From Heligmosomoides polygyrus polygyrus (taxonomy: Eukaryota > Nematoda > Chromadorea > Rhabditida > Heligmosomidae), in the NCBI GenBank assembly GCA_947396885.1, contig OX377204.1, positions 93,010,728-93,074,727 on the forward strand: 64,000 bases of DNA, read 5' to 3'. Positions 11,015-47,369 of the stretch are shown here, in pieces. The translations under genes and the position numbers were made by a program. The notes below the pieces were generated by a model, which saw only the letters and a program-made list of their open reading frames with translations, ran no database searches and was not told the DNA's origin. The number at the start of each line of letters is the position of its first letter. The stretch's first letter is position 1.

Positions 11015-12080
11015 TTTTACGTCGAATTGGACACTCTTCTAAGCTAGCCTCAGTCTTTTGAAATCAGAACGAACTCTTCCAAGTCGAAATGAGTTTTTTC
11101 TACACCAGGCAAATACTCTCCAAAAATGTTAGATAAATTTTTCGTAGAGGAAATTTGTTGCATGATTTCTATGAGGTTTTGATTCACCTACCCAATAAGC
11201 GGCGCGTCTAGCGCAGTCGGAGAAGGCGTCGACTATCGCGTGCACCCGAAACCAGGTTCCTGGCTCGAATTTCCCCCGAGGCCAATCAAGCCTTCCATCC
11301 CCTCGGGGTCGGTGAATTGGTTTTGCCTGAGGAGAATAAAGCGCTGATTTGTTCATCGGTTGGCTACCGCAAGTCATTGTATGGCCAAATACGCATTCAG
11401 TCCACAATATCCCGTAGAAGTAGAATGCGTGGCGCATCCCAAAAGGGATTGAATAACGCCGTCCTTTACCCTTTATTTACCTAATTATTAAATACTTTAA
11501 AATTTTATAAAATTCTTATTTTATGTGGAAGAATAGTGATTCTGGCGTGCATGCGGGCGCAATTTTCTGGTGCCAAAAGAATAAATTGCGCCTTGCCCTC
11601 TTCAAAGACGTCGCAATTTTTATTCGATTCATAGCAAAATTGCTATATGCGCGAAGTTTCACACCAGTAAACGATATAAGAAAAGCAAAAGAATATTATA
11701 CACATATTCTCATTTTGATGCTTCACGTAAGCAGCTTTTACAGTTTCCCTCAAATAAAAATCGGGAAGAGCTTTATGAGTGCAAGGCGCAATCTGTTTAC
11801 TAACGGATTGATTTCCGCGTTGTTGCGCTTTGAAACAAAATTTAACTTATTATTTTTTCTCTTAAAACAAAATTTTTGTTAAATTATTATAATCATTCGG
11901 ACAGCAGTGGTCAAGAATTGCAGTAAAGTTAAACGCGTTTTTCTGAACAAAAAATTATTCAAATCATCTAAAAGAGTCTGTAGTTTTACCAGTAAAAGCT
12001 AGGTCCGATTTGGGAAACGCTCAATTTGATTTCAAAATTCCTAGGCTAGCTCAGAAGAGTGTTGAATGGTATAGATGTAT
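11015..12080. mobile_element. Foldback family FB, copy a
   Basis: Starts near ACATACCGTTTTTACGTCGA and ends near the inverse AATGGTATAGATGTATAGG. Inner blocks (TTCGATTCATAGCAAAATTGC, CTTCACGTAAGCAGC) recur at 36.7-37.7, 39.7-41.0 and 45.0-46.8 kb. A SINE-A copy (11201-11482) sits inside. No transposase is visible. Confidence 0.65.
11201..11482 (+). mobile_element. SINE-A copy nested in FB copy a
   Basis: Head TAGCGCAGTCGGAGAAGG, B-box-like GGCTCGAATTTCCC, tail with the GAATGCG-TGG-CGCATCC hairpin and CCTTTACCC. Body has a small deletion. Confidence 0.8.
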
Positions 12081-20300: not shown

Positions 20301-23300
20301 TTGAGCTTCTTCGCGACGAATTCACTCAAGGCGAGGAGGGCTTCTGAAGATAACAAAAACAACGAGATAGCAGTTGGGCTGAATACGAATCCTCTAATTC
20401 GAATTGACTGTTAGAATTCACTATGGAAGAAGCTATTCCGCGGCTTCCAAAGCTTTCCTTCATTCCATATGCAAAGACGCGTTTGACGATAACCACTATC
20501 CACATTTAGGTGTGATGTGGTTCTTTTTGGAGTGCGCCATGCCTACTTTTAGTGCAGGAGCTTTGAAAGCCTAGGAAAGGGACGCTTTTGAACGCCCACT
20601 CTAGATAGTATAGTGTTAACATCATTTAATTAATTAATTAGTTATTTGGGCGCGTGGAGCGCAGTCGGAGAAGGCGCCGGCTGTCGCCTGCACCCGATAC
20701 CAGGTTCCTGGTTAGGATTTCCCGCTCAGACCAACGAAGCTTTCCATACCCCCGGGGTCGGTGAATTGGCACCAGACTTGTCTGGGAAGGATGAAGCGCT
20801 GACTTGCTCATCGGCTGGCTACCGCAAGTAATTGTATGGCCAAGTACGCGTTCAACTTGCCCCCACGACATCCCGTAGAAGTAGAATGCGTGGCGCATCC
20901 CAAAGGGGATTGAATAACGTCGTCCTTTATCCTTATTTATTTCTTTATTTATTTTGTTCACTTAACTACGTCTCAAGGACGCGGACTATATGCGAACAGC
21001 AAAACAAATAAAAATAGGACGTGTAGCAAAAAATAAGAAGGATAAAGGACGGCATCACTCAACTTCCTTCAGAATGCGCCGCGCATTCTAATCCTAGGGG
21101 ATGTGGTGGAGGCGATCTGAATGCGTATTTGACCAAATGATGACCTGCGGTGACCAGCCGATGAACAAGTCAGCGCTCTATCCTTCCCAGACAAGACTGG
21201 CACCAACTCACCCACCCCGGCCGGATAGAAGGCTTAGTTGGCCTGGGCGGGAAATCCGAACCAGGAACCTGCTACCGGTTGCATGCGACAGCCGGCGCTT
21301 CATCCGACTGCACCATGCGCGCCCAAATTTGGAAATAATGATGATAAACTTTTTGACTAGCATTTCCTTCCAAGATTTCTTCACCTGTCTTTATCGAAGA
21401 CAACGGGTGCTGAGTGGAACACCCAGCGCTCATGCCTGATTGGCATGAGCGCTCCCACCTAGCAATGCTGCTCACCTTCGCGACATGTACCCTTTTTTGT
21501 TTTGTTTTTTCCTACTTACAATGACCTTAACTAATGTTCCTTGAAGTTTTTCTGCTTTTGCATAGTTATTCATAAAAGTACAAAAGGATAAAAGGATAAA
21601 GGACGGTGTTATTTAATCCTTTTGGAATGCGCCACGCATTCTACTTTTAAGGGATATCGCGGAGGCGATTTGAACGCATATTTGGCCATACAATGACTTG
21701 TGGTGGCCAGCCGATGAACAAGTCAACGCTTCATCCTTCCCAGACAGGTCTGGTGCCAATTCAACGACCCCGGAGGGATGGAAGGCTTGGTGGGCCTGGG
21801 CGAGAAATTCGAACCAGGAACCTGGTATCGGGTGCAGGCGGTAGTCGGCGCCTCCTCCGACTGTGCTACACGGGCCCTTATAGCCATCCATATGCAGAAC
21901 AAAATACATTCAAATATTTTAGCAAATTTTTCTCGCCCTCTGTTCTGATTGCCATTTTCAGATTGCCGACCGGCCAATGCTGTCCGAGATCCATCACCAC
22001 GGCCTATGGTGGGACTGTGTGCTGTCGGACGGGACGCTGATTCCGCTACCGTACTCGGCGGGTGATGTTGCACAGCAGCCGCAGAAAGGTGCTGAGCTCA
22101 GTGGTCTCGCGTGTGCAACTCCGCGATTTCCCGTCGTTTAATAGCCTCGTCCGCCGAGCAAAAAACGGCGCATCTCATCGTCGACGCGCTTGCCCGTCGT
22201 CGAATTGAACGCGAGATTAATGCAGCAATGTCGCCGACTCGTCAAAAAACGCTCGCCGATGGCGAACTGATTTAGGGAATCGCATTCGGAGCACTGAGGT
22301 TGATGATCGAAAAACGCTTCGGCAGGGTTTTTATCGAGTCAAGCTTGCAGTTCAGCTATGGAAGATGCTCTTCAATGTAGAAAACACCTTCTAAGGAATA
22401 TCACGTAATTTGAGAAGGCACGAAGCATCGTTCACTGTAAAGTGCAGAATGAAACAGTGCCGGGAGAGGTTTGAGTTGCAGCACTAAATGTGCTGCAGTT
22501 TCTGTTATGGAGTTTTTCTATAAGTCTTTTTCAGTAAACTATTAAGAATCCGGCACTATTGTACATTACGGACTCCAGAGAACGAGGAGAGGTCGAAAAC
22601 ATTTTTAGTCCAAACTTCGCCCAGGGGGTTATTTGGGGTGCTGATCACGAATCTGACATCCCTTTTTGAAATTTCGGTCGATTACGGTAGGTGCGGGTAA
22701 CTAAGGCTGTCGAGGTCATAATCACCAGTTTCGCCCAAACTTCGCCTAGGAGGGTTATTTGGGGTGCTGATCACAAACCTGACATACGTTGTTCGTTTTA
22801 CGCTGGAGTTTCGGCGAAATCGGTGACCATTACCTTAGTCACCCTAACCTTCCGTAACCTACCGTACTCCAGCGTAAAACGAAAACGGATGTCAGATTTG
22901 TGATCAGCACCCTGAATAACCCCTCTAGGCGAACTTTGGGCGAAATTGGTGATTATGATCTCGACAGCCTTAGTCACCGGTGCCTACCGTAACCAATCGT
23001 AATCGACCAAAATTTTTAAAACGGATGTCAGATTCGTGATCACCACCCTAAATAATCACTCTAGGCGAAGTTTGGGCGAAAATGGTGATTATGAACTCGA
23101 CAGCCTTAGTCACCGGTACCTACCGCAACCTACCGTAATCGGCCAAAATTTCAACAACGGATATCAAATTCGTGATCAGCACCCCAAATAATCCCCTAGG
23201 CGAAGTTTGGGTGAAAATTTTTTTTCGACCTCTCCTCGTCCAGCGGAGTCCGTAAGGTACAATAGTGCCAAGAATCCCCCTGGAGATACCGCTCAACTAG

Positions 23301-26300
23301 AGTTCTGAATTGCCGCGTTGTGTTAGACAAAGTTTCTTCTTGGAGACAATCAGCAATTCACTGCTAGCACGTTTAGTAAAAAAATGTTGCTTCTGCATTA
23401 CATTTTGCTTTTTTTTTTGGAAGCGCGACGACAATCCACCCAGGAGCCACGCTAAACACCGCGTGCGGCGCGAAAAAGTATGCCACGCGTGCCAGCACAG
23501 AAAGCCATCGCGCATTCCGGTCTCCACTGTTGCGGCGGCCGACAGCGAAGTTTCCTTTGATTACTCGGCCACGAGCGGTGGAATCGTCATGAACTGAACA
23601 GCTCGATAGCATCGCGGCGATGGAACTATGCCCCCGTCCTTAGGCTTCGTGCATACTCCCCGTCGCCGCGATGGAATCGCGGGGATGAGTTTTGCAGAGC
23701 GACGCGAAAGGATTTGAATTTCTCGGTGGTAGTGGCATCGCTCATCGCTCTGCAAGGGAACGCGATGGCGATCCGTCCAGGACCAACGCTAAACAGCGCG
23801 GGCAGCGCAAAAAAGTATTCCATGTCCGCGATAAGCGCGGGAAGCCATACCGGCCGTCAAAGTTGCGGCAGCCTCGGCGAAGTTTCCTTTGACTATTCGG
23901 CAGCGCGGCGGAATGGCCATGAACTGAGCCCCGCGATGGCATCGCGGCGATTGAATACGCCCCTGGCCTTAAGCCCTCCGCACACTTTTGCGGCAGCCGC
24001 GTACGCGGCAGAGGCCAGAACAGCCGCGTACGCCGCTTCCACTGCCGCGTGCTAGAGTTCACGCGGCACTCCTCCCGCTCGCTCAATCACCAACGCGGCA
24101 ATGCGGCAACAATGCCTTGAAGGATTACTGCCGCTGCCACCCCGTCTGCCGCATCTGCCGCGTAGGCGGCACATCAGCGGCAGGCCGCGCGAGGCAAGTT
24201 TTGCCTCGCGCGGCGACTCTGCGTCTCTGCTCCATGCCTAAAGATAGGGCTGCCGCGTTGCCGCAAAAGTGTGCGGAGGGCTTGAACGGGCCCTTGAACG
24301 AAAACCAAACAGACAGTATGTCCTTCTCTCTGTGCTCATCAGTAAAAGAGTGGAAGGAAGAAGGAGTTGTTGCTGTGAACTAACCTGGGCTCCTTCTGTT
24401 GACGTTGGACTTGGCGAACAACAAATAAACGTAAAGAAGCAAGTTTTGGATGCTATATAATACTATAGATGCTATAAAGATACCACCAGAAATAAATAAA
24501 TCTTCAATGAAAGGCATTAAGAAGATATGAGAAGGGTAGCAGAAAAGTAGAATAGATGCAACGATTTGCAGCAGAGAGCGCAACGTGGTTCAACGAAAAG
24601 ATTCACCAAGGGAAGAGAGTGGATTAATAGAAAAGGAGAAGGGGTTAGTTATGGTGAAGGAGAAAAAAGTGATGAAGAGGTAGAGCTCCACGCCGAACCA
24701 CCAAATGCCCTGCAGTCCACCACCACGTGCACAATAAGTTAGGGAGTATGATTTCATAGTTTAAGTGCTAGTGCTAGACTTAAAAAGTGATAAAATTAAT
24801 GAACCGATGGAACAACACCAATCAAGGCATTTACATATCGAGTTCTTTATATGAATTTTAGTGTGACCTAGATCGTATTTATATTGGATTAATTTGTTTT
24901 TGCGAATGCATTTAAATAATTGAAAACGTTACCGTCATAACCTGACTCGGATAGTTGCCTTTTATTATGCAAGAGTTTGGTTATAAAATCCTCTTTAAAG
25001 CTCCATGTTCGACTTTCCATAAATCTCGGCATAGTGAACATGTGGTTCTGAGTTCGAGTGCGTCAGCTAGCCAAGATAACACAGGTTTATTCGGCTAACG
25101 TTTTAGCCTCCTCGCCTTCGTCGGAGCCTAGAAGTGCAGAGAAGGACCCGTTAGAGTCGCCCGCAAACCAAATCTGATCTGTGGCGATCTGTGGGCGACT
25201 CCAGCGGGTCCTTATCTGCACTTCTTGGCTCCGGCGAAGGCGATAAGGTCGAAATGTTAGCCGAATAAACCTGCGTTACCTTGACTAGCTGACGTACTCG
25301 AATTCAGAACCTCTTTAAAGCTTCAACTGCGTGCAATTCTTAGAGTTTCTGCATAGATCGTGGCTTTTTTGATATTATATGGCACAATGGTATCGAAATT
25401 TGGAAATCTTTTGATACTAATGTTAAAGATATCTGTTTTATTATAAAGCTTAGTGGTTAATTGATTGCCCGAGATCTTTATTTCCATATCTGAATAGTTG
25501 CACAAGTAGTCGTTGTCATCAGTAATAAGTAGCTTTAAGACATCATTATAGACGTTGATAAGTTTGTTATAAATATCATTAGTGCTATTGTTATGGACAA
25601 CTAAAATGTCCTCATTATAACGAAATTGAATAAACAGGTAGAGGTTAGAGTAGGTAATAGTTTAAAATTCTCGAGAGAAAGATTTAATTTATCAAACCAC
25701 CTGCATATCATGTATGATTGGAAACATCAAGTATGAGAGGTTTTTAAGGCTATTTCTCATTATTTTCCATTGTTGGCGAATGTTTTTCACTTTGCATTCC
25801 AGAGCAAGATGCTTTGCAGGTGAGACATGTCTCAGTAAATTCGATCCAGCTGTTCACGCACAGCTAAGAAGTGTGCTCGAATCCAGTGACGCGTCGTCTA
25901 GGGAGCTTTTATTGCACCGGTTTCTACGTGAGTTTCTGAGAAATTCTAGAAGCACTTTGTCCAGTTTCTCTGCTAGTTGGTTTCGGGTTCTGGTTCAAGC
26001 TACGTCTTGAACACGGCGACAGCGGTGGAGAAAACTGAACTGTTGATTCACGCGTTTCAGCTCACCATAAAGCAGTGATCTTCTTCTCGGTGTTCACGTT
26101 CGTATTCGGCTCCATTGGCGTCATCACCGGTGCGTGTTCACCGTGTTTCCCGCCTAATTCGCTGCTCTACGTGGTCTCCATATTCATGACAGGTGACTCT
26201 TGCGATCATTCCGAAGAAATATGACTAAGCAAAATGGCGATCAGGATAGCGTAGGAGGGTTCAAGCACCGTTGGCACGTGTGTATCAGGCCCATGTTCGA

Positions 26301-29300
26301 CTCCGCAACTGGCCTTATCGCTGTTAAGCGCATAGGGCGACGAATTTTTTTCACCGCTGTCTGTCCTGGGCTACTTCTTCACACTCCTGCCTAGAACTAT
26401 TGATAACTTTCAAGTCATTCATCAACGTGCGACGTCACGTGTTTCTTGGGCGGCCTCTGGTTCGCTGTCTGCCGGGATCCACTGCAATGCTGTGCACAGG
26501 CATACGCAGAATGCACCCGACCACGCGAAGTCGGCGTTGCGTAACGGTTTCGTAAAGGTTAGCTAAGCGGCAACGTCGCTATACTTATTTGTCGATCAAG
26601 CGGTCCGTGTAACGTATCCTCATTATTTGCCGCAGACATTTGCAATAAAATTCATTGACCCATCTGATGATACTAGCTGACATCATCCATGTTTCGCTAG
26701 CGTGCTTCGCGGTGGGGACGGCTATCGAAGAACACAAATGCAGCTTGACGTTATTTGAAATGGAAGACGACGTCCGCAGTGGCTTATCTCAATAATATAA
26801 TAGCTACATAATATTAATATTAATACACACCTCTAAATCAGCTTCTGAATATTTGGCAAAGGTTGATTTGAAACTAATAAAAAAATAAGATAGTGACCGC
26901 ACCATCAGATTACCGTTTGTTTTGCTCCCTTCAAAACCATTTTATGATAAAATTTTTGATTTTGATCAAGCTGCTAAAAATGAGTTGCACCAGTTGTTCG
27001 CTTATAAAAACCAAGACTTTTTTCAACGTGGAATTTTTCAACATACCGAAAGAGGCAGAAGGTCATTCAACAACATGTTCAATACATTAACCCATTGACG
27101 ACCGCGCGGCCCAATTTTAGCCCGCGGTTAAAAAAATGTTCGCTGCGGCCCACTCCCTCGATTTTTCATAGTTTACTAGTATTCATTATATTTGCTGGAT
27201 TCTACCAATGCTACCTGCACAGTGGTCCGAGAATCATTTACTTCTAACGAAAGCTTTAATAAAAAAAATCAGCACAACACACTATTCAAACCTCAAATAA
27301 ATAGATACTACTCACGAGCAGCTACGTATATCTTACAAAAATGGTCATGGTTAAGACATCTAGTCAAATTTCTTGCGAAAAACTTGAACCCAATTTAGAA
27401 AGAATATTTCAAACACTTGCTGCATCGTGTGGTCACCTTATTTGCACGATTCGTGACGAACGTGCGCCCTTTTCTGTGCTGACCTTTTTATAGCAGCAAA
27501 TGCATCTCCTACGTTTTGCTTCGAACCTGTTCCGGCCTTTTCCAATATGTGGCTCACCCATTGGAGAGGTAGCTTCATTTGGAATACCGTGAAGTAGTGA
27601 ATGCACGAGATTCGAGCCTCAAGGCGGTCCCAGCGCGCGGTCCCACGCGCCAGACACGCAATTTGCCGCGCGGTCGTCAATGGGTTAAGATTAATGTTTG
27701 TTGTTAGTATAAACAAATTCACTTTGAAATTATGAAAAAAACGACATCTATTATCGAGCAACCTAATACATTAGCTTCAAAAAAAAAGCTAAAAAAAAAA
27801 CAAAGAAAAAACTAAAAACTGAAGCCTAGTATCAAACACTAAAGTCTTCCAAGCAAACACATTTTGCTCCAGAATGATTGCTAGTATTTTCAGCCGCTTG
27901 TTCAATGCTATCCGATATCATTTTCGTCTTCGGCGCCACAAAAGACAATAAAGCCAGGGACGAGTTGGAGCCGCCAGACGAAACGCAGCCGGAGGTGCGT
28001 TGCTTTCACCAAACTACGTAGTGCAATAGGTACGTGGTAGCGCAGCCGAAGGAGGTGCCGGTTGTCGAGTGCATCCGATTCTAGGTTCTTGGCTGGGATC
28101 AAGAGTTGGCGGAATTTCTGCATTCTGTTTTCTGACTTCCCGACTACTTTAGGCAAATTTTTTACATTCTTTATTTCCTGGAAAAGTGGCTGAATTCGAT
28201 CAGAAGACAGGGAACAACATGGCATAGAAATTTCTACATGGATGCCATAACCTAATTTATTTTAATGTGCATCCTACAGTCCACCACATCCACACTTTGA
28301 ACATCCTTCAAGAAAAACCTTACGACTTCAACAATAAATGTCGTGCGTTGTTCAAAGATTTAAAAAAAACCTTCTATACTGTCGAACTACCAGTGGTATG
28401 AGAGGCTTTGTAAAGTTTTAAAATCGAGGATAATCAGGTCAAAGCTATTCAACTTTCAACTGCTTTATACTTCTTTAAACAGAAGTGCTGTTATGAAGGT
28501 AGGATCAAGTTATGTTGAGCTGAACATTCAAGAAGGTGTTCGAAAATGAGATTCTCTTTCACTACTACTTTTTGTGTTAGCACTTCAAAATGTGCTGAAT
28601 GCGGTCATCTGGCTAAATGGATGTTTCCGAATGAATGACGAGATACCTCCACGCATCGCATATGCTATCGTATCGTATTGCCTGCTGATGCCTGCAACGA
28701 ACTACAAAGCATGGCAGAAGATCTTACAGAGCTGTCAGGTCGAGTCGAATTTGAAATGAATTACTCGAGAACCAAGTGTATGAAACTCGGTAGACCAATA
28801 ACCGACACGGAAGGGGTGTAACAGAAATCTACGGATAAGTTATAGAATGCGTCATCGAATTTATTTACCTAGTACACCTTTTGTCAAACTAGCGCAATCC
28901 ACTAAAACAGGTTCAGAAAAGGATTAAAGCAAAAAGAGGAGTCTATTTTAACTACGGACTGCTTGTTCTAAGGCCGTTTTAAACCCGTCAAGTTCAGCTG
29001 AAAAGAAGCACTTTAATACTCCATGTTCGACTTTCCATAAATCTCGGCATAGTGAATATGTGTACTGAGTTCGAGTGCGTCAGCTAGCCAAGATAGCACA
29101 GGTTTATTCGGCTGACGTTTCGGCCGTATCGCCTTCGTCGGAGCCTGGAAAGCCAGAAACGTGTAAAATTATCCCACCAAGCACCATTTCAAATTGAGAA
29201 AACAAATTCAAGCACCGTGTGGACCAGAAAAGGAACCATGCAACCGAGGCTAGAAGGCTCACATAGAAGTGCAGAGAAGGACCCGTTGGAGTCGCCCACA

Positions 29301-32300
29301 GACCAAATGACTGGTAGGTGACCCAGAAGCCGTGCCGTGGCCTCTGACCTGAGGACTCCGGAGGTCAGAATCCACAGAGGTCAAGGAATGGGGCGAGTTC
29401 GTTGGCTATGGCCAGACATTCATCCTTTCTGTTCAACTTGGGATTTTTGCTGTGTATCCAAAACGCCTCCAATGTTTTGCGTGCAGCTGTTTGTTTCTCT
29501 TGCGCCAGAATTCGCACTGTCACCTCAAACTCTGCATTATCGTGCGTTTGCAACCGATGAGATCCTAGAGGAGTTGAAGGGTTTGACTTTTCTAAACCAT
29601 TGATGTGCTCCTTCATCCGCACGCATAGCGGACGACCCATTTCCCCCACATGCTCCTCTCCGCACCGCCTGCACGAAATTACATAGATGGCCCCCGAGAT
29701 CAAGCAGTCGCCCACTCGCCCATATGGGCAGATGACGCACCCAGGGGTGGGACAATATCGATCGTAAAGCCGATTTCGGATGAACCGCCGCTTAAGGTTT
29801 GGGAGCGGTATTTCTACTAACCTAACCGTACCACTAAGATCGTAACGACGTAAAGAGGCCCGGATAGACGCGCTTAGTGCGTCGTCTATGAATGGAAAAC
29901 AGAACGGGATTTTGTCGTCGTTTTCCACAGTGTTAGTTCTGCGTTCGGAGGAAAGTATGCGCACAGTTTGGCTGGTTGTGGGGTAGCCATTAGAATGCGC
30001 AATACATCTAGCCTTCTCCAAGGACTCTGCCTTTTCCTCGCTCCCAGATGAAACTTTTTCCGCCCATTTGAACATGTTTCTTGTGACGCCAAGCTTTGTT
30101 TTTAGGGGATGTGCAGACCGGAAGTGGATGATTATNNNNNNNNNNNNNNNNNNNNNNNNNNNNNNNNNNNNNNNNNNNNNNNNNNNNNNNNNNNNNNNNN
30201 NNNNNNNNNNNNNNNNNNNNNNNNNNNNNNNNNNNNNNNNNNNNNNNNNNNNNNNNNNNNNNNNNNNNNNNNNNNNNNNNNNNNNNNNNNNNNNNNNNNN
30301 NNNNNNNNNNNNNNNNNNNNNNNNNNNNNNNNNNNCGGAGGAAAGTATGCGCACAGTTTGGCTGGTTGTGGGGTAGCCATTAGAATGCGCAATACATCTA
30401 GCCTTCTCCAAGGACTCTGCCTTTTCCTCGCTCCCAGATGAAACTTTTTCCGCCCATTTGAACATGTTTCTTGTGACGCCAAGCTTTGTTTTTAGGGGAT
30501 GTGCAGACCGGAAGTGGATGATTATGTTTTTACTGCTGGGTTTACGGAACCACTTCGTTCTGTAGAAACCCCTCCTTAGTTGGACCTGAACATTCAGGAA
30601 AGGTAGCCGCTCTAGGACAGGTTGTTCTATCCTGCTCATGAAAGCAATGGCCACCGTTGGCGCTAGCCTTTGGCCCATAGCGAGTCCCCTAATTTGTTTA
30701 TAATAGTTACCCGCCTACCTAAAAATGGAGCAACCTAGGCATTGCTTTAAAAGGTCCATGATGTTTTGTACTGAGAGACCGTAAGTGTTAATATCCGTGC
30801 GGTGCTCAGTAAGGAGCTCACATATCGCTTGCACTGCATTATCATTTGAGACGTTGGTATACAGAGAGGTTACGTCAAACGACTCCATGACGTGATTGCG
30901 TCTGAATCTAGATTCCCGTAACTTGTCAAGAAACATATTTGTGTTAGTAAGATGGGCGGGTATAAATTGAAGCAATTGTGAGAGAATGAGGTTAAGGAAC
31001 CAAGAAATAAGCTTAAGCGGCGGTTCATCCGAAATCGGCTTTACGATCGATATTGTCCCACCCCTGGGTGCGTCATCTGCCCATATGGGCGAGTGGGCGA
31101 CCGCTTGATCTCGGGGGCCATCTATGTAATTTCGTGCAGGCGGTGCGGAGAGGAGTATGTGGGGGAAACGGGTCGTCCGCTATGCGTGCGGATGAAGGAG
31201 CACATCAATGGTTTAGAAAAGTCAAACCCTTCAACTCCTCTAGGATCTCATCGGTTGCAAACGCACGATAATGCAGAGTTTGAGGTGACAGTGCGAATTC
31301 TGGCGCAAGAGAAACAAACAGCTGCACGCAAAACATTGGAGGCATTTTGGATACACAGCAAAAATCCCAAATTGAACAGAAAGGATGAATGTCTGGCCAT
31401 AGCCAACGAACTCGCCCCATTCCTTGACTTCTGTGGATTCTGACCTCCGGAGTCCTCAGGTCAGGGGCCGCGGCACGGCTTCTGGGTCACCTACCAGTCA
31501 TTTGGTCTGTGGGCGACTCCAACGGGTCCTTCTCTGCACTTCTAGGTGAGCCTTCTAGCCTCGGTTGCATGGTTCCTTTTCTGGTCCACACGGTCCTTGA
31601 ATTTGTTTTCTCAATTTGAAATGGTGCTTGGTGGGATAATTTTACACGTTTCTGGCTTTCCAGGCTCCGACGAAGGCGATACGGCCGAAACGTCAGCCGA
31701 ATAAACCTGTGCTATCTTGGCTAGCTGACGCACTCGAACTCAGAAGAACTTTAGTTCTTGCGTGCTCTCTGCCGTTCTGCACGATTGCGAAGCTTGGACA
31801 TGATCACAAGAATTTACTATAAGACTAATTCCGTTCAAGGAAGACTTGAAAGAGCAATTCTCGGTGTTCGTTTGAGCGATAAAACACGGTCGAGAGTTGC
31901 TCGACACAGACTAGAACTCAAGGATTTGGTCCACCACGTGCTCATAAAGAAGTGGCTGTTCGCAAACAAGCTCTGCAGAAGCGAACGTTCATGGGCACGC
32001 ATTGAAGCCAATTGGATACTTGAGGAAAAACAACGTAAAGGAAAGCCAAGAACAAGATGGTTGGACAACATCGCAATACGATAGGAACAGGAACAAGATA
32101 TGTCATGAGAAATTGGACCGCTCTGATTGAAGGGAATCCGAACAAGAACACTGAACTCTTCGTGAAGGAAGCTCGTTGACACTTAGGCCTATATTATACT
32201 TCGGCGACGCTGTTGTTGCCGACGCGTCGCCGAAGTATAAAATGGGCCTTAATTGTGTCGTGTTGCGATAAAAGATATGTAATAAATCAATAAACAAAAA

Positions 32301-34240: not shown

Positions 34241-34355
34241 ATTTACTGCTAGAACCGCCCAAGTCCGACTTTCGATAAATCTTGGCATATCGAGTATACT
34301 ATTCCAGCGTGCTTCTCTGAGCTGTTCCCCAAGATTGTTGAACAGGCTTTACTTC

Positions 34356-34392
34356 GGCTGACGTTTCGGCGTCTTCGCCTTCTTCGGAGCCT
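34356..34392 (-). ncRNA. Hammerhead-ribozyme-like core, PLE3 left arm
   Basis: Minus strand: GGCT-CCGAAGA-AGGC-n-GCC-GAAA-CGTC-AGCC. Complete apart from U4 to C and the extra A in stem II. Confidence 0.62.
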
Positions 34393-34965
34393 GGAAAAGT
34401 TGAGAATATTAGTGAAACTATTCCCCTAAACGCCATTTCATCCTACAGAATAGTGTTCTCAAGACAGCTAGAGTAAAGGACCGATGTACCAGGTACAGCG
34501 TATCAACTAACCTTCCAGGTGAGTGCCGATGAGCACCACAAGTCACCCGCGGATGGAGATGTTCCAAGTATCCGTCTCTATCTTAGCGAGAGAAAGCGAC
34601 ATCTCAGCACGCAGGACACTTGAGGCGCTTTGGATAGCGGTCAGAAATCCACAGGTCAACCGCAAAGACGAGTGCATAGCGATAACCCAGTAACTGGCAC
34701 CCTTTGTCGAGCTCTGTGGGTTTTGATCAATCTGATCTGACCTGCAGGGTATTTAAGTCGGGTGGTATCCGGGGCTAAACTCACTCACCCACGTCTATCT
34801 CAATCCACGGGTGACTGGTGGTGCTCATCGGCACTCACCTTGAAGGTTAGTTGATACGCTGTACCTGGTACATCGGTCCTTTACTCTATCTGTCTTGAGA
34901 ACACTATTCTGTAGAATGAAATGGCGTTTGGGGGAATAGTTTCACTAATGTTCTCGACTTTTCCA

Positions 34966-35001
34966 GGCTCCGAAGAAGGCGAGGACGCCGAAACGTCAGC
35001 A
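34966..35001 (+). ncRNA. Hammerhead-ribozyme-like core, PLE3 right arm
   Basis: GGCT-CCGAAGA-AGGCGAGGACGCC-GAAA-CGTC-AGCA. Same as the left arm except for the last stem I base. Confidence 0.6.
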
Positions 35002-35071
35002 GAAGTAAAGCCTGTTTAACAATCTTGGTGAACAGCTCAGAGAAGCACGCTGGAATAATTTACTGCTAGAT

Positions 35072-35625: not shown

Positions 35626-35635
35626 AGAATATTCC

Positions 35636-35844
35636 CACTATTTCAGCCCCTATTTCCGAATCGTCAAAGCATCTGCTAATGTCTCTGGATTCGTCCGTTG
35701 TTCCGCCAGTTCAAATCCCTACCTCGCTCGGATTACTGTGATTCCTTTTCGTAATGCATAGACGCATCGAAAGCTCTAGGACGCATGGAAAGGGCAGCGC
35801 TGACGCAGCGCGCAGATCACTGTCAGCGAACGGCCGACGCCTGT
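35636..35844 (+). repeat. Duplicated 5' flank of tRNA-Leu, copy 1
   Basis: About 160-200 bp upstream of the tRNA gene match 38005-38217 (CATCTGCTAATGTCTCTGG versus CACCTGCTAATGTTTCTGG) at roughly 75-80% identity by eye, falling off just before the tRNA. Confidence 0.7.
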
Positions 35845-35962
35845 GCACGGATGGCCGAGTGGTCTAAGGCGCCAGACTCAAGCGTACAACTTGCCGCGAG
35901 GAAAGCGGGCTGAGCGTTCTGGTACTCGTAAGGGTGCGTGGGTTCAAATCCCACTCCGTGCA
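35845..35962 (+). tRNA. tRNA-Leu(CAA) with a 34-base intron, copy 1
   Basis: 118 nt. Acceptor GCACGGA pairs fully with TCCGTGC, discriminator A. Anticodon stem CCAGA/TCTGG around loop CTCAAG(T), anticodon CAA. Intron 35883-35916 follows the base after the anticodon. Long variable arm as in Leu tRNAs and T-arm GTGGG-TTCAAAT-CCCAC. tRNA-Leu(CAA) genes carry introns in many nematodes and other eukaryotes. Confidence 0.95.
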
Positions 35963-36144
35963 GACGTTTTGCTCCTCATCACTACCGGAAATGACTTTTT
36001 CATCACTTATGTCGACAACGGGAATTTCAAACCTTTTCAGGCGTGCCGCTAAGAAGACTGTCCTGAATTTCTAATTGTATGCACCTTGTCCTTGTTGTTT
36101 TGAAGCGATAATTGTTATTCCCCATGTAGCCGTAATGAATAGAT

Positions 36145-36442
36145 CAATAAAGGATAAAGGATGGCGTTATTCAATCCCCTTTGGGATGCGGCACGCATTC
36201 TACTTCTACGGGATGTCGTGGAGACGAGTTGAATGCGTATTTGGCCATACAATGACTTGCGGTGGCCAGCCGATGAGCAAGTCAGCGCTTTATCCTCCCC
36301 AGACACGTCTGGTACTAATTCACCGACCCCGGAGGGAAGGAAGGCTAGGTTGGCCTGGGCGAGAAATCCGAACCAGGAACCTGGTATCGGGTGCAGGCGA
36401 GAGCCGGCGCCTCCTCCGACTGTGCTCCAGGCGCCCTTTGAA
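36145..36442 (-). mobile_element. SINE-A copy (full length)
   Basis: Reverse copy between the two tRNA-Leu genes, from AAAGGATAAAGGATGGCG tail to head GACTGTGCTCCAGGCGCCC. Confidence 0.85.
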
Positions 36443-37735: not shown

Positions 37736-38004
37736 AAACTCACCAAATCATCCGCCAAAGCCTGGACCAATAGTTCTAACTTCAGTGTTTGAGCCCTCCT
37801 ACCTTCAAAGTGTCTGCGAGTGGTAGCACAGAAACAAATGCGTGGCGTATCCCGTAGAGGAAGTATCTTTCATCGACTCGATCTTTTGTACGGAATGTTT
37901 TGTCGAATTTTATCGAAAAAACTATTGATTCAGATCAGGAATCAAAAATGAAAGCCCCATTTATGCCGTCAGCATCAATCCATTAACTTGGGAAACTTCC
38001 CACT

Positions 38005-38217
38005 GGTTTCAGTCCCTATTCCCTCATCGTCGAAGCACCTGCTAATGTTTCTGGAGTCGTCCGTTGTTTCGCTAGTTCGAATCCCAACCTCGTACGAATT
38101 ACTATGATTCCTTTCCCAATACATGGACACATCGGAAGTTTCGGGAAATGGCTGCCCCGATACCACGGCCATGAATAACAGCGAGCATATCATTGGCGGT
38201 GAATGGCAGTCATCTGT
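38005..38217 (+). repeat. Duplicated 5' flank of tRNA-Leu, copy 2
   Basis: Counterpart of 35636-35844, with more mismatches than the tRNA itself. Confidence 0.7.
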
Positions 38218-38335
38218 GCACGGATGGCCGAGTGGTCTAAGGCGCCAGACTCAAGCGTACAACTTGCCGCGAGGAAAGCGGTCTGAGCGTTCTGGTACTC
38301 GTAAGGGTGCGTGGGTTCAAATCCCACTCCGTGCA
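38218..38335 (+). tRNA. tRNA-Leu(CAA) with a 34-base intron, copy 2
   Basis: Identical to copy 1 in all mature positions; a single difference lies in the intron (GAAAGCGGTC instead of GAAAGCGGGC). Same strand, 2,373 bp downstream. The 3' flank shares only GACGTTTTGC. Confidence 0.95.
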
Positions 38336-38559
38336 GACGTTTTGCTTTTCCGGCAAAAACACCATCATGAACATGGAATCCTAAATCGATACGCATAGTA
38401 CAAGTTCCATCCATGAAGTTCATAGCACACACACACCTCATGCATGCAACATCGTTCTCATAGAGAATGAGCAAGAACACGTGGAACTCGTGCTTCACGG
38501 CTGACGAGCCTGAGCATCTATTCAATGGAGGTACTTTTTCGGACCTATTCTCACGCCTT

Positions 38560-39414: not shown

Positions 39415-39705
39415 GTAAGGCTAAATAACGGCGTGCTTAGTCCGTTTCAGAATGCGCCGCGCATTCTGCCTCCGCGGAATGTCGTGGAGGCGATTTCAAT
39501 CCATATTTGGCCATACAATGACTTGCGGTGGCCGGCCGATGAAGAAGTCAGCGCTTTATCCTTCCCAAACAAGTCTGGTTCCAATTCACCGACCCCGGAG
39601 GGATGGAAGAATTGGCTTGCTTGGGTGGGAAATTCGAACCAGGAACCTGGCATCGGGTGCATGCAACAGCCGGCACTCCTTCGACCGCACTATAGGCTAC
39701 GAAAT
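39415..39705 (-). mobile_element. SINE-A copy
   Basis: Reverse copy; tail hairpin here is GAATGCG-CCG-CGCATTC, head degraded near CGACCGCACTATAGGC. Abuts FB copy d. Confidence 0.8.
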
Positions 39706-39709
39706 AAGT

Positions 39710-40975
39710 AGATAGAGGTGTAATAATTTTATTAAAATTTTGTTTTTTTAATAATAAATTAGATGTCGTCTTAAAGCACAGCATTCCAAATTTCATTTAA
39801 ATTAGTGCAGGGAAGATCGCGCCATGCACTTGAAAGCTTGTAATTTTTATATGACAGAGAGTGTGGATGCTGCCCACATGAAGCATCAAACTGAGAGCGT
39901 GTCTTTTACAGTTGATTTTGGCGTGTTGTTCACAGGTGTGAAACTCGATCTAAGCAAAAATTCTGCTATCAATCGAATAAAAATCGCGACCTCTTATACG
40001 AGAACGTGACGGAATCTGTTTTTTCAGCGCTAAAAATTTGACGGTCGCCTGCTTTTTAAGACAAGCTTCATGCCATTATTTTGACATAAAAATGAGAATT
40101 TCATAAAATTTCAGACAATGTATTCACATACTGGGCGGGTGAAATAACTTTTTAAAATTTTTCTTGAAAAAAAATTATTGTTCGCTTTGATTTCAAAAGT
40201 GTTGGGCTAGCTTAAAGCAGTATCCATTTTGATTTGAAAGGTGTTCAATTCGATGTGGAAATGTTCTTTTAGTGCTCTGGATGCCTGTAGCCTTCCTTGT
40301 CACACCCTTTGGATTCGATCGGGCAAGAGCTCGATAAGTACCTATTATTTTTATACGCATGCATTTTTAGAATAACTTCTAAACCGAATACGATTTATTC
40401 CCTGTTTTCGAAGAAGTTTAAAGAAGAGAACGCCGTCACTTGCCAAAGGATACGACATGGCCACACTTTCGATTTTACCGGAGGTTTCACATTTATCCCT
40501 AGTTTTCAGCAATGTTTTTCGATGTTTTAAACTAATAGGAAGTCCACTTGTAGATTTACGAGGTGACATTAGCTGACCGGATGCAAAGAAAAACCAAAAC
40601 CAAAATAAGGTGCCACATCGCTCTTTTTGATCGCTTTGTGGAACGGATTCGCCCACAAAGGAAAGTGACTGAATCCCTGCCCTTTGCAGCTGCCCATACT
40701 CTTATAGCCATCTTCGTGTCGCTTTGGACACTTTCCAGATGAAATTTAACACTCTCCTAAGAAAGTTTTTTAGGACTTTTGAGAAGCGAACTCTTCCAAA
40801 TCAAAATGTCCTTCAGTCATGTTAAACTACGGACTCAATAAGATTATTAGAACAGTTTGTTGTTAAACAAAATTTGTTGCAACTTTCTTTGAATTTTCCA
40901 GTCCGACTCCCCCAATAAGTGTAATAATTGTATAAAATTTTTATTTTTGAAAAAATTATAAATTGTAATTTGTCC
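39710..40975. repeat. Foldback family FB, copy d (left arm of a large inverted repeat)
   Basis: Inverted match to 45165-46655, with very high identity over the inner 700 bp (40270-40975). A 100-codon frame (40351-40656 minus) recurs on the plus strand at 45487-45777 because of the inversion; it has no known domain. Confidence 0.82.
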
Positions 40976-42240: not shown

Positions 42241-42422
42241 AGCTGTTACTAGTGAACATATGGTTTGAAATTTTATAAACATTTTATTTTTGAGGAAAAA
42301 TGGTAACTTAAAACTAGCATTGTATTCCATGTGCGACTGTCCTTGAATCTCGGCATTTCTTAGAACAGTATGGCAGGTAGTCGTGGAGCTGTCGTGCCAA
42401 GATTGATATCGAACGTTTATTC

Positions 42423-42458
42423 GGCTTACGTTTCGGCGTAACTGCCTTCTTCAGGGCC
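42423..42458 (-). ncRNA. Hammerhead-ribozyme-like core, PLE2
   Basis: Minus strand: GGCC-CTGAAGA-AGGCAGTTACGCC-GAAA-CGTA-AGCC. This copy has the canonical U4 (CTGAAGA). The cleavage triplet would be GTA. Directly follows the intron 3' end TTTTTTCCAG. Confidence 0.67.
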
Positions 42459-42660
42459 TGGAAAAAACAAGGGGAGTTAGAGAAATTACCCGTCCAAGAG
42501 TCATTTCAAGTTTCAGCCTTCTCGAAAGCTAAAGGGAGAAAGAGACAAACCGCGAGGAGGACAGCCCAACTGACCTTATGTAAACAGCCGAAGGCTGTGG
42601 AGTCACCCTTCAGATGGAGATAAATGTGGGTGAATGAGGTCCTCCCTTCGGGTCAGCCCC

Positions 42661-43825
42661 TCAGCGACCTTCCGGCTGGCGCCCCCCAGGGTCAAGCCCA
42701 CAGAGGTCGGCAAATGGAGCCAACTCCTGGGTTATGGCCACCTTCCTATTGATTTCAGGGTTCTTGAACGCAATCCACAGCGCCTCCAGGGCCTTGCGCG
42801 CTGCGATGTCGACCTCGCGGGCCAGGATCGTCACCGCCACTCTAACCACTGCGCCACTATGACTTCGCAGCTTGTGCTCCCCGAAGGGTGTGGCGACTTT
42901 GCACCTGTTGACCCCATCCATATGCTCCTTAACCCTTACCCAAAGTGGTCTGCCAGTCTCGTCAACGTATTCCTCCTTGCATTCAATGCAAGTTATGAGG
43001 TATACTGTTCCTGAAGCCCTACAGGCGCCTTCGCTGCTGAATGGGCAGACCACACAGGAGGGTGTTTCACAAGCGCAGTCATTAATATGGTTCCTGTACC
43101 AGTTGCGCCTTGAAATTAGCCGGAGCCACCTAAAGATGTCACCCCGGTCAGCCTTATGAATGCATTCCCGTACTTGAGCACTGAGAGCGTCCGAGATAAA
43201 AGGTAGGGTGAGGGCGATTTGATCACGCAATTGTGCCCTGTGTATGCGTGCTTGTGCACGTGGTTGACGGCCACTGAACATGTTGTGGGCAACATACCCG
43301 TTGGATAAGGCAATGCGAGATGCCATTTTCCTAGATGAGGACTTGAACTCGCTATTCGAGGACACCAGTGCAGCTGTTTGAAACATATTCCGGACATTGG
43401 CCCTCTTAGAACTGTATGGGTGTGCGGATCGATAGTGCACAATGATGTCCTTGTTGCTGGGCTTCTGGTACCACTTAGTTTGGAAGATGTTCCTAGAGAG
43501 ACGAATTTCCACGTTGAGGAACGGCAACCAGTGACTTGTCGGCTTCTCCCTTGTGAGCTTGATATGCTCAGCCTGATGGTTCAGCAACTCGAAGCAGGCA
43601 TCCATTTCGCTCTGCGTGGGACATACGATGAGACAATCATCTATTAGGTTAATACGTAAGTTCTCAGACATTTGGGGCATGAAATATTTATTATCACAAC
43701 ATACGAACAACAATATCAAATCGTGGTAAGTCATGGATGCCTTTTCTCCAAAACGTGGCCTGTTGTGATTCGAAAATGTGAGCAGTGCCTCCATGACATC
43801 CTCTCGGTTCCTAAATTGCTGGCCG
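42661..43825 (-). pseudogene. PLE2 RT/GIY-YIG protein, partial
   Basis: Minus strand: NREDVMEALLTFSNHNRPRF and YHDLILLFVCCDNKYF (after motif A), then a deletion removing motif B, then INLIDDCLIVCPTQSEMDAC with the catalytic IDD. Next WLPFLNVEIRLSRNIF, a long linker, the Cys cluster CETPSCVVCPFS and GIY-YIG (GTVYLITCIECKEEYVDETG, with YVD in place of YVG). Open to the end (DLCGL) without stops, unlike PLE1, but 5'-truncated and lacking motifs A and B. The frame continues upstream into mariner sequence by chance. Confidence 0.82.
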
Positions 43826-44721
43826 TCCAAATAGCGTTGAAGGCTTGAAAAACAAATGACAATCAGAAGGAGCGAGATCTGGTGAGTAAGGTGGATGTGG
43901 AAGAACGGTCCATCCGTAGTCCGCCAACTCAGCCGCCGTCGCTCTAGCAATATGCGGTCTAGCGCTGTCGTGTTGAAAATACACCTTCACTTGCTCTCCT
44001 CGTGTGGTTTGAAGGTGAGCCCTCATCTTCCTGGTTGGTTGACGTAAACCTCTGCCGTCACTGTTAGCCCTTCGTTCAGCAGCTCCCAGTATTCTACGCC
44101 AAGAACGCTCCACCGAATGCATAGCATCACCTTTTTCACGTGAAGGTCGGGTTTCGGAACGTCCTCTGCCTCTCCAGTTGCGTTAACCCACTGTACACGC
44201 CGGTGATAATTAGAGTAGAGTATTCACTTCTCATCCCCGGTGACAAGGTTGTCCAGCCATCCGTGGATACGTCTGAGGGTAAGGAGAGACAGAGCGACAT
44301 GGGCTCTGCGATCCATGTCATGTTGTGTCAAGTCGTGAGGTACCCAGCGATATAAACTTTGCACCTTGCCAATCGACTTCAATCCTCGAACGACTGTTGG
44401 GTGACCAACACCAGGAGTGCTTGATAGTTCGCCAGTGGTTGGGTATGGGTCCGCTTCCACTCTACTTCGGAGGCCATCCAAATCCAGTGTCATCGAACGC
44501 CCTTCTCGTTCATTATCTTCAACGGAGAATTCACCAACTGCAAACTTCGAGAACCACTGGTACACAGTACTTCGAGCAGGAGCACTCTCGTTGTAAACAT
44601 CCTTCGGGCGACGATACGATTCGTTGGCATTGAGGCCAGGTTGATGCAGGAATAACATGACGTGCGGAATATGCGTCTCGGTTGGGATGAATTGCTTAGC
44701 CATAATAGCTGACGTTAACAA
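43826..44721 (-). pseudogene. Mariner transposase M2, truncated
   Basis: N-terminal part 44224-44721: ARSTVYQWFSKFAVGEFSVE, PTTGELSSTPGVGHPTVVRG, YRWVPHDLTQHDMDRR, ending GDEK before a stop (Trp expected). After frameshifts the catalytic part reads VKVYFQHDSARPHIARATAA and PHPPYSPDLAPSDCHLF (D, D present), then in another frame SSLQRYLDGQQF, where mariner sequence stops at the PLE2 junction. It belongs to a different mariner group than M1. Inactive. Confidence 0.85.
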
Positions 44722-45004: not shown

Positions 45005-46830
45005 GAACATGAACACACATCTTCATTTAGATGCTTCGTGAAAGCAGCATGTTAACACTATCAATCAAATGAAAACCGCGTCGACCAGGCGCGTGCAGAT
45101 GCAGGTGAGTGCATGGCGCGATCTGGTTTTCTAATGCACTAAGTGATTGCTTCTTTGCTTTACTTAAAGACAAATTACAATTTATAATTTTTTCAAAAAT
45201 AAAAATTTTATACAATTATTACACTTATTGGGGGAGTCGGACTGGAAAATTCAAAGAAAGTTGCAACAAATTTTGTTTAACAACAAACTGTTCTAATAAT
45301 CTTATTGAGTCCGTAGTTTAACATGACTGAAGGACATTTTGATTTGGAAGAGTTCGCTTCTCAAAAGTCCTAAAAAATTTTCTTAGGAGAGTGTTAAATT
45401 TCATCTGGAAAGTGTCCAAAGCGACACGAAGATGGCTATAAGAGTATGGGCAGCTGCAAAGGGCAGGGATTCAGTCACTCTCCTTTGTGGGCGAATCCGT
45501 TCCACAAAGCGATCAAAAAGAGCGATGTGGCACCTTATTTTGGTTTTGGTTTTTCTTTGCATCCGGTCAGCTAATGTCACCTCGCAAATCTACAAGTGGA
45601 CTTCCTATTAGTTTAAAACATCGAAAAACATTGCTGAAAACTAGGGATAAATGTGAAACCTCCGGTAAAATCGAAAGTGTGGCCATGTCGTATCCTTTGG
45701 CAAGTGACGGCGTTCTCTTCTTTAGACCTCTTCGAAAACAGGGAATGAATCGTATTCAGCTTAGAAGTTATGTCTAAAAATGCATGCGTATAAAAGTAAT
45801 AGGTACTTATTGCCCGATCGGATCCAAAAGGCGCGACAAGGGAGGTTATAGCCATCCAGAGCACTGAAAGAACATTTTCAAATTAAATTGGACTCTCCTT
45901 TAAGCTATCCTAAGACTTCTGAAATCGATGCGAACTTTTCCAAATTGACATGAGCTTCTCACACATTAAACTAGAAATACTCTGAAAAGGTTAGACAATT
46001 TTTTTCCTCAAGGAAAATTTTAGTATAACTTCATTTGAGGTTTTAATTCGCTTACGTAATAAGTGAATACTTCCTTAAATTTTTTTATGAAAGCAAAAGG
46101 ACCAAAACCAACAAAAACCAAAGCAATAGTTTAGTTTCCGTTTTGCACGTGCCCTTAGACGGAAAGCAAACCAACTATTGCTTTGGTTTTTGTTGGTTTT
46201 GGTCCTTTTGCTTTCATTCCGTTTCATCACATTTTCAGCCTTCTGTTTTTCCTTCCTTTATGAAAAATAGTGGTATAAAGCCTTTTTCAAAACCAGGCAA
46301 GCGTCCAATTTTTAGCGCTGAAAAACAGATTCCGCCATTCCCTCGTCCAAGAGGTCGCGACTTCTATTCGATTAATAGCAACATTTCTGCTTAGATAGAG
46401 TTTCACACCTGTGAGCAACAGCCAAAAGCAACTGTAAAAGACACGTGTTCTCAGTCTGATGCTTTATGTAGGCAGCATCTACACTCTCCGTGAAGTAAAA
46501 ATTACAAGCTTTTTAAGTGCATAGCGCGATCTTCCTGTACTAGGTTAAATGAAATTTGGATTGCTGTGCTTTGAAATAAAATTTAATTTAATATTTTTCC
46601 TAAAAAATAAAAATTTTATAAAATTATTACACCTCTTCTTATTTCGTAGCTTGTAGCGCAATACACAATACATGTTCTTTGTTCTGTTCTGGTTTTTAAC
46701 GTTCATGTTCTGTTTGGTCTTTTTTGTGTGGATAAATAAATAAATAAATAAATAAATAACTTTGGTTCGAAAAATCTCCAATTTGATTTGAAAAGTGTCC
46801 AATTTAGCGTGAAAATGGCATATATAGGAC
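45005..46830. repeat. Foldback family FB, copy f (right arm of the large inverted repeat)
   Basis: 45165-46655 mirrors 39710-40975; the arm contains a 130-bp perfect hairpin insert at 46088-46216 missing from the other arm. The end at about 46790-46830 (CCAATTTAGCGTGAAAATGG, CATATATAGG) is the FB terminus. Confidence 0.78.
46088..46216. mobile_element. Perfect-armed hairpin insert
   Basis: TGAAAGCAAAAGGACCAAAA at the left and its exact inverse at the right, arms of at least 42 bp without mismatch around a loop of about 40 bp. Absent from FB copy d. Confidence 0.75.
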
Positions 46831-46875: not shown

Positions 46876-47162
46876 TGGGCGCGTGTAGCGCAGTCAGAGG
46901 AGGCGCCGGCTATCGCGTGCACCCGATACCAGGTTCTTGGTTCGAATTTCCCACCCAGGCCAGCCAAGCCTTCCATTCCTCCGAGATCGGAGAATTAATA
47001 CTGGACATGTCTGGAAAGGATAGAGCGCTGATTTCTTTAACAGCCGGCCACCGCAAGTATGACCAAATACGCATCCAAATTGTCTCTACGATATCGAGTA
47101 GAAGTAGAATGCGTGGCGCATTCCAAAAAAGATTGAGCAACGCCGTCCTTTATCCTCTACCC
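46876..47162 (+). mobile_element. SINE-A copy (full length)
   Basis: Head TAGCGCAGTCAGAGGAGGCG, B-box-like GGTTCGAATTTCCC, tail hairpin GAATGCG-TGG-CGCATTC, pyrimidine tail CCTTTATCCTCTACC. Confidence 0.86.
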
Positions 47163-47369
47163 TTTACATACAAGACTGGATAAGCCCAGTTCTAATTGCT
47201 TTTTCTTGCCATTGGGAGTTTTACTATATATAATTCAGTTGATTCGTGGGTCACGTTGTCAGTCAAAGGAGGTGTGGGACCAAAGTCAAACGATGCCTCA
47301 CGAAAGACAGAACGGCGTATATCATCACTGAGCTGGTATGGCGTCTCAGGGCATGCATGGGGATCAAAT

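Follow-up and report, generated by a model that had tools for sequence, protein, structure and literature searches.

A 307-bp head-to-head Penelope-like insertion without its leader intron in Heligmosomoides polygyrus polygyrus: a candidate product of double priming on spliced mRNA

Head-to-head pseudo-long terminal repeats (pLTRs) have been described for insertions of canonical Penelope-like elements (PLEs) such as Pen2a of Adineta vaga, and the one-sided tail and PLE introns are likewise in print (PMC3846280). PLEs keep their introns, and section 11 of the same paper proposes an antisense template with self-priming for head-to-head repeats, which fits intron retention, while leaving room for unspliced sense RNA. 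For Poseidon PAc of Anolis carolinensis, the in vitro work of PMC11167929 shows that reverse transcription begins at a pair of neighbouring internal sites early in the open reading frame (ORF). The genomic tail corresponds to the sequence between these sites, and the two strands of the target both undergo cleavage and extension. The hammerhead at the junction of pLTR and ORF is dispensable for insertion in vitro (PMC11167929). Animal retrozymes, short hammerhead-bearing insertions that are non-autonomous, are thought to be mobilised by long interspersed nuclear elements or PLEs (PMC11722881) and are described with circular RNA and a type I hammerhead (PMC7229834, PMC11722881). Here, an insertion of 307 bp with two inverted arms (25003-25309) is described from the genome of Heligmosomoides polygyrus polygyrus. 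Its arms copy a PLE leader, and both are exactly devoid of an intron. All coordinates refer to a stretch of 64 kb, called the window.

The limits of the element given in a preliminary description were correct. In inverted orientation, the arms are the same at 105 of 124 ungapped columns and different at 19; an inverted-repeat search aligned 25044-25165 with 25190-25311 at 86% complementarity. The palindrome score was 148, with a maximum of 14 among mononucleotide shuffles (only 20). The reported palindrome holds for these arms and does not extend to the left end, where approximately 43 nt are without a counterpart at the other end. The inner ends of the arms are offset by 4 nt, which is the difference in length between the two exon-1 parts (Table 1). 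The target duplication claimed around the whole element is of the short type made by PLEs, is identical at 13 of 13 positions and marks a real insertion. An exact match of at least 13 nt arose in 3 of 2000 random pairs of 36-mers drawn from the window, which may include repeats. Coding capacity is restricted to ten codons. The element is a non-autonomous product of a PLE and has neither a reverse transcriptase nor an endonuclease of its own.

On the minus strand, the left arm closes with 30 nt that translate into MPRFMESRTW, and the equivalent site in three other copies of the window gives MPRFMESRTW, MPRFIESRTW and MPRFKDSRTW. Between any two of the four tails, 0-4 of the 10 codons differ synonymously and 0-2 non-synonymously. 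A start with MPRF or MPRL was found in 18 of 118 gathered database proteins, 14 of which have at least 600 amino acids (aa). By source names, the 18 proteins are from Ancylostoma, Haemonchus and Necator, and 15 of them matched the first motif scan. The other 100 proteins start differently, and many are short. Since the left end encodes a PLE start codon and ten residues, each arm represents the 5' leader of an mRNA from such a PLE, and the tail corresponds to the beginning of the ORF. This is the arrangement of PLEs, in which a pLTR includes the ORF start and a tail may be present on one side.

The coding sequence of the copy at 42-43 kb is 79% identical, over 62% of the query, to a GIY-YIG-domain protein of Heligmosomoides polygyrus. 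It had 36 matches, mostly from strongylid nematodes, many with reverse transcriptase or GIY-YIG Pfam domains. When two ORFs of the window were scanned directly against Pfam, no PLE domain was found. Judged by the leader that it has in common with the 42-43 kb copy, the 307-bp element is a derivative of a canonical GIY-YIG-type PLE. The Penelope derivation put forward earlier was thus borne out by the coding sequence of a leader-sharing copy and by the start codon in the tail.

The leader of the five other arms in the window contains segments of 118, 118, 121, 121 and 117 bp, as had been noticed in the longer copies. These introns begin with GTGAGC, GTTAGT or GTCAGT and end with TTTCCAG/G (slashes mark splice sites), and a branch-like CTAAC, CTAAT or TTTAC begins 22-23 nt before the 3' end. 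Their position, just upstream of the hammerhead-like core, is fixed in five of five arms from three diverged subfamilies; the last exon base is altered in one of them. In the 307-bp element the intron is gone from both arms, as had been claimed, and the exons are joined exactly. The left junction reads CTTCTAG/GCTCC (between 25127 and 25128) and the right junction, with one substitution, CTTCTTG/GCTCC (between 25227 and 25228). The alternative named earlier, that the intron segment is a separate insertion into the longer copies, was rejected in view of the splice signals and the exact GT..AG ends. Independent random deletion in each arm was rejected because these ends are exact in both.

Three observations led to the rejection of genomic inversion as the source of the palindrome: exact GT..AG boundaries of the loss in either arm, splice signals, and a target duplication that encloses the arms together. 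The preliminary description had placed the origin of the palindrome in reverse transcription, and this view stood: the two ends are unequal in the same way as those of two other head-to-head copies, and splice signals are present in the missing segment. Gene conversion can act between inverted repeats, so that loss of the intron might also have spread later from one arm to the other by this route. The 19 mismatches in 124 columns argue against recent conversion, and with the duplication surrounding both arms, inversion or conversion appears very improbable.

The RNA could instead have come from a genomic PLE copy that was already intronless, either a retrocopy or the product of a microhomology deletion, with double priming unchanged. 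Such a single template source accounts for both arms. At the splice junctions of the nearest copy, TAG/G and CAG/G give a 3-nt AGG repeat on both sides, which makes a microhomology deletion conceivable, but the same deletion twice is not easy. Three differences from the plus-strand arm of the 29-31 kb copy are common to both arms of the 307-bp element, as expected if both share one source, and permit a source distinct from the nearest intron-bearing copy. However, the intron is kept in all five other arms of the window, and an exact deletion from GT to AG is unlikely unless splicing occurred somewhere in the history of the sequence. An intronless source is regarded as unlikely, but as deserving serious consideration.

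An exon-2 profile was built from seven copies and recovered these same seven, located in four insertions, with E values of 8.6e-21 or better; four further weak matches within the window (E of at least 0.34) were left uncounted. Left arms match the profile through its last position, 127, and right arms end at positions 84-94 of 127. Start-codon motif and tail were absent from the right flanks of the right arms in the head-to-head copies. The tail is confined to the left in three of three head-to-head insertions, which fits two internal start sites and extension of both strands as in the Anolis PLE.

It is more probable than not that the 307-bp element results from one PLE insertion event, in which both arms were reverse-transcribed from spliced sense mRNA by double priming. 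At a break staggered by 13 nt, both 3' ends would prime reverse transcription on the spliced sense PLE mRNA. The left primer would start at an internal site about ten codons inside the ORF, and the right primer about 13 nt upstream of the start codon, at another internal site. Both cDNAs would run through exon 2 and then exon 1 to, or near, the mRNA 5' end, and would be joined head to head with the 12-bp filler between them. The exact exon junctions suggest spliced RNA as the template at this insertion, and by analogy with the Anolis element both target strands may have been primed. The common inner end of the arms would then be the 5' end of the mRNA. For independent, uniformly distributed ends, the chance of an offset of at most 4 nt is 0.5-7% over ranges of 1900-122 nt, so the agreement of the inner ends is no more than suggestive of extension of both primers to the 5' end of the spliced mRNA. 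An initiator-like TCATTT beside ATTTGG, a candidate motif for the transcription start spotted by eye, was not used as evidence. The longer copies may have kept the intron because their synthesis began at the downstream pLTR of a tandem RNA.

Near-equal inner ends also fit a fold-back, by which a single cDNA or antisense template primes the second arm on itself. This is discussed for the inverted repeats of Adineta vaga PLEs in PMC3846280, where head-to-head repeats with junction palindromes are read in this way. Antisense RNA, however, would keep this intron unspliced; the right arm also ends near the ends of the other two right arms, and the tail is not repeated. Self-priming is therefore considered quite improbable for the 307-bp element.

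Several points weigh against double priming on spliced mRNA. Exact splice-type junctions fit the earlier claim of a spliced origin but do not prove the use of spliced RNA at this insertion, since an intronless genomic source would leave identical DNA. Under the narrowest range, the 4-nt coincidence is weak (7%). Only a single such element occurs in the 64-kb window. Compared with the nearest copy, the left arm has 7 private differences and the right arm 12, which implies that the insertion is old or that two templates differed. The 19 differences among 124 columns stand beside a perfect 13-bp duplication, a combination with a chance of approximately 11%, estimated as (105/124)^13. The target duplication of the 29-31 kb copy is imperfect (an exact match of 6 bp, or 11 of 12 positions if one mismatch is allowed), so that PLE target duplications are not uniformly clean here. 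Finally, 9 of 19 database proteins of at least 850 aa have no MPR start, including a coral protein and nematode proteins starting with MRLRD or MKLRD; some of the nine represent other PLE lineages or gene-model variants.

The element had also been described as a two-ribozyme unit, and this was not confirmed. The core of the left arm reads TAAAA instead of the consensus CGAAA, so that the G of GAAA is lost. At a site that is U in hammerheads, C is found in both arms and in the nearest relative. The Rfam hammerhead models gave no match across the whole window at E values up to 1, nor in the short stretches 25090-25290 and 42400-42480 at E values up to 10; small PLE hammerheads may evade Rfam models. 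In the lowest-energy predicted folds of four of the seven arms (two each from the 307-bp element and the 29-31 kb copy), the core bases are paired and the fold is not a hammerhead. The predicted fold of the 42-43 kb copy has two hammerhead-like stems. Insertion in vitro was unaffected in hammerhead mutants of the lizard PLE (PMC11167929).

Compact and complete, with its own target duplication, the palindrome might belong to a non-autonomous family whose members move as finished units. By the exon-2 profile, the 64 kb contain one copy of the unit, and a one-sided tail is the expected outcome of fresh double priming; membership in such a family is held to be improbable. Two core patterns, one exact and the other degenerate, returned 0 stretches each in scans of viral contigs; the host genome lies outside this collection, and the result has no bearing on copy number. 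With a protein alignment (14 of 38 proteins), 54 stretches of viral contigs matched a pattern, none of them a relative. The same 14-protein alignment gave 4 stretches in a scan of genome contigs, again none a relative; this collection likewise lacks the genome of the host and has no bearing on copy number.

Table 1. Features of the 307-bp element and comparison copies in the window (a dot marks features without strand).
Feature	Position	Strand	Basis
Left target-site duplication CCTCTTTAAAGCT	24990..25002	.	sequence comparison
PLE start codon and first 10 codons (MPRFMESRTW), outer part of left tail	25003..25032	-	translation; MPRF or MPRL starts among database proteins
43-nt tail, left arm only, inner limit ±2 nt	25003..25045	-	arm comparison, exon-2 profile
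Left arm, exon-2 part of leader, including hammerhead-like core and tail	25003..25127	-	
Left arm, exon-1 part of leader, 46 nt, directly abutting exon 2	25128..25173	-	
Filler CTGATCTGTGGC, 12 bp, between arms; last 10 bases nearly repeat right-arm start	25174..25185	.	read directly
Right arm, exon-1 part of leader, 42 nt	25186..25227	+	
Right arm, exon-2 part of leader, without tail, stops 13 nt short of start-codon place	25228..25309	+	
Right target-site duplication CCTCTTTAAAGCT	25310..25322	.	sequence comparison
Longer head-to-head PLE insertion; introns in both arms (29145-29262, -; 31546-31663, +); tail left only; 200-base N run	29015..31743	.	
Head-to-head PLE insertion of other subfamily; 13-bp target duplication ATTTACTGCTAGA; introns 34391-34511 (-) and 34846-34966 (+); tail left only	34252..35051	.	
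Single-arm PLE copy (limits of the preliminary description); intron 42458-42574; PLE coding sequence in ORF 42661-43950, which extends beyond the copy	42325..43825	-	

The paired arms of the two other head-to-head copies are spaced by 1209 bp and 236 bp, in contrast to the near-equal inner ends of the 307-bp element. In the 29-31 kb copy, the arms share 98.5% identity across 735 bp. The N run in this copy (30136-30335) is bordered by an exact 190-bp repeat (29946-30135 and 30336-30525) and is probably an assembly artefact. An ORF of 437 aa, the longest in the copy, spans the N run and is not real as read. The ORF containing the PLE coding sequence of the single-arm copy starts, by eye, in mariner-like sequence and runs into the PLE. 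A minus-strand ORF with a Mos1-type helix-turn-helix domain (PF17906) adjoins the same copy at 44224-44721.

Other repeats of the window include a dispersed repeat of approximately 290 bp, resembling a short interspersed nuclear element or a miniature inverted-repeat transposable element. Its copies are present in both orientations with about 74-90% identity (250-545, 1788-2084, 11201-11475, 20648-20949, 21038-21328, 21583-21877, 36136-36436, 39417-39692, 46876-47165 and 49717-49990). A duplicated segment (35632-35973 and 37997-38346; 82% identical) contains in each copy a tRNA gene with a long insert by the anticodon arm, both scoring 52.2 bits. At 46087-46217, an inverted repeat of 131 bp (84% over 138 columns with gaps) matches the microRNA family MIR840 on both strands with 60 bits, against a gathering score of 150, and is probably a small inverted-repeat transposon. 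A long inverted pair at 40180-40974 and 45169-45935 is 93% identical over 796 columns.

An insertion of this form, with exact splicing in each of the head-to-head arms, points to a spliced sense RNA as template and to priming by the two strands of the target. It is a natural hint that this class can copy spliced sense RNA from both cut target ends. If so, leader-only insertions would record PLE splicing, transcription start and double-strand priming in genomic DNA. The template could then be spliced sense RNA and not solely antisense or unspliced RNA, and the usual retention of introns would reflect the starts at downstream pLTRs of tandem RNAs proposed above. More broadly, PLE enzymes might produce recurrent leader-only insertions, in which spliced mRNA is entered near its own initiation codon and copied to the 5' end from both sides of the break; this generalisation is offered tentatively, at somewhat less than even expectation. 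No description of a spliced, leader-only, head-to-head PLE insertion was found in the literature searched; older work on PLE introns and the Penelope promoter, outside that search, may hold an intronless copy.

Retrozymes differ from the 307-bp element, which has inverted repeats, a damaged left core and nothing indicating circularisation. Pen2a resembles it in the head-to-head pLTRs, and an intron was seen in another family of the Adineta vaga genome (PMC3846280). Unlike Pen2a, the 307-bp element has no ORF between its arms, both arms are intronless, and both end at nearly the same position of the leader. With Poseidon PAc it would have in common two internal start sites, a tail between them and extension on both strands. 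PAc, an in vitro system for which section 3 of PMC11167929 does not mention spliced templates, starts 111-118 nt inside the ORF, whereas the putative starts of the 307-bp element lie about 30 nt inside and about 13 nt before it.
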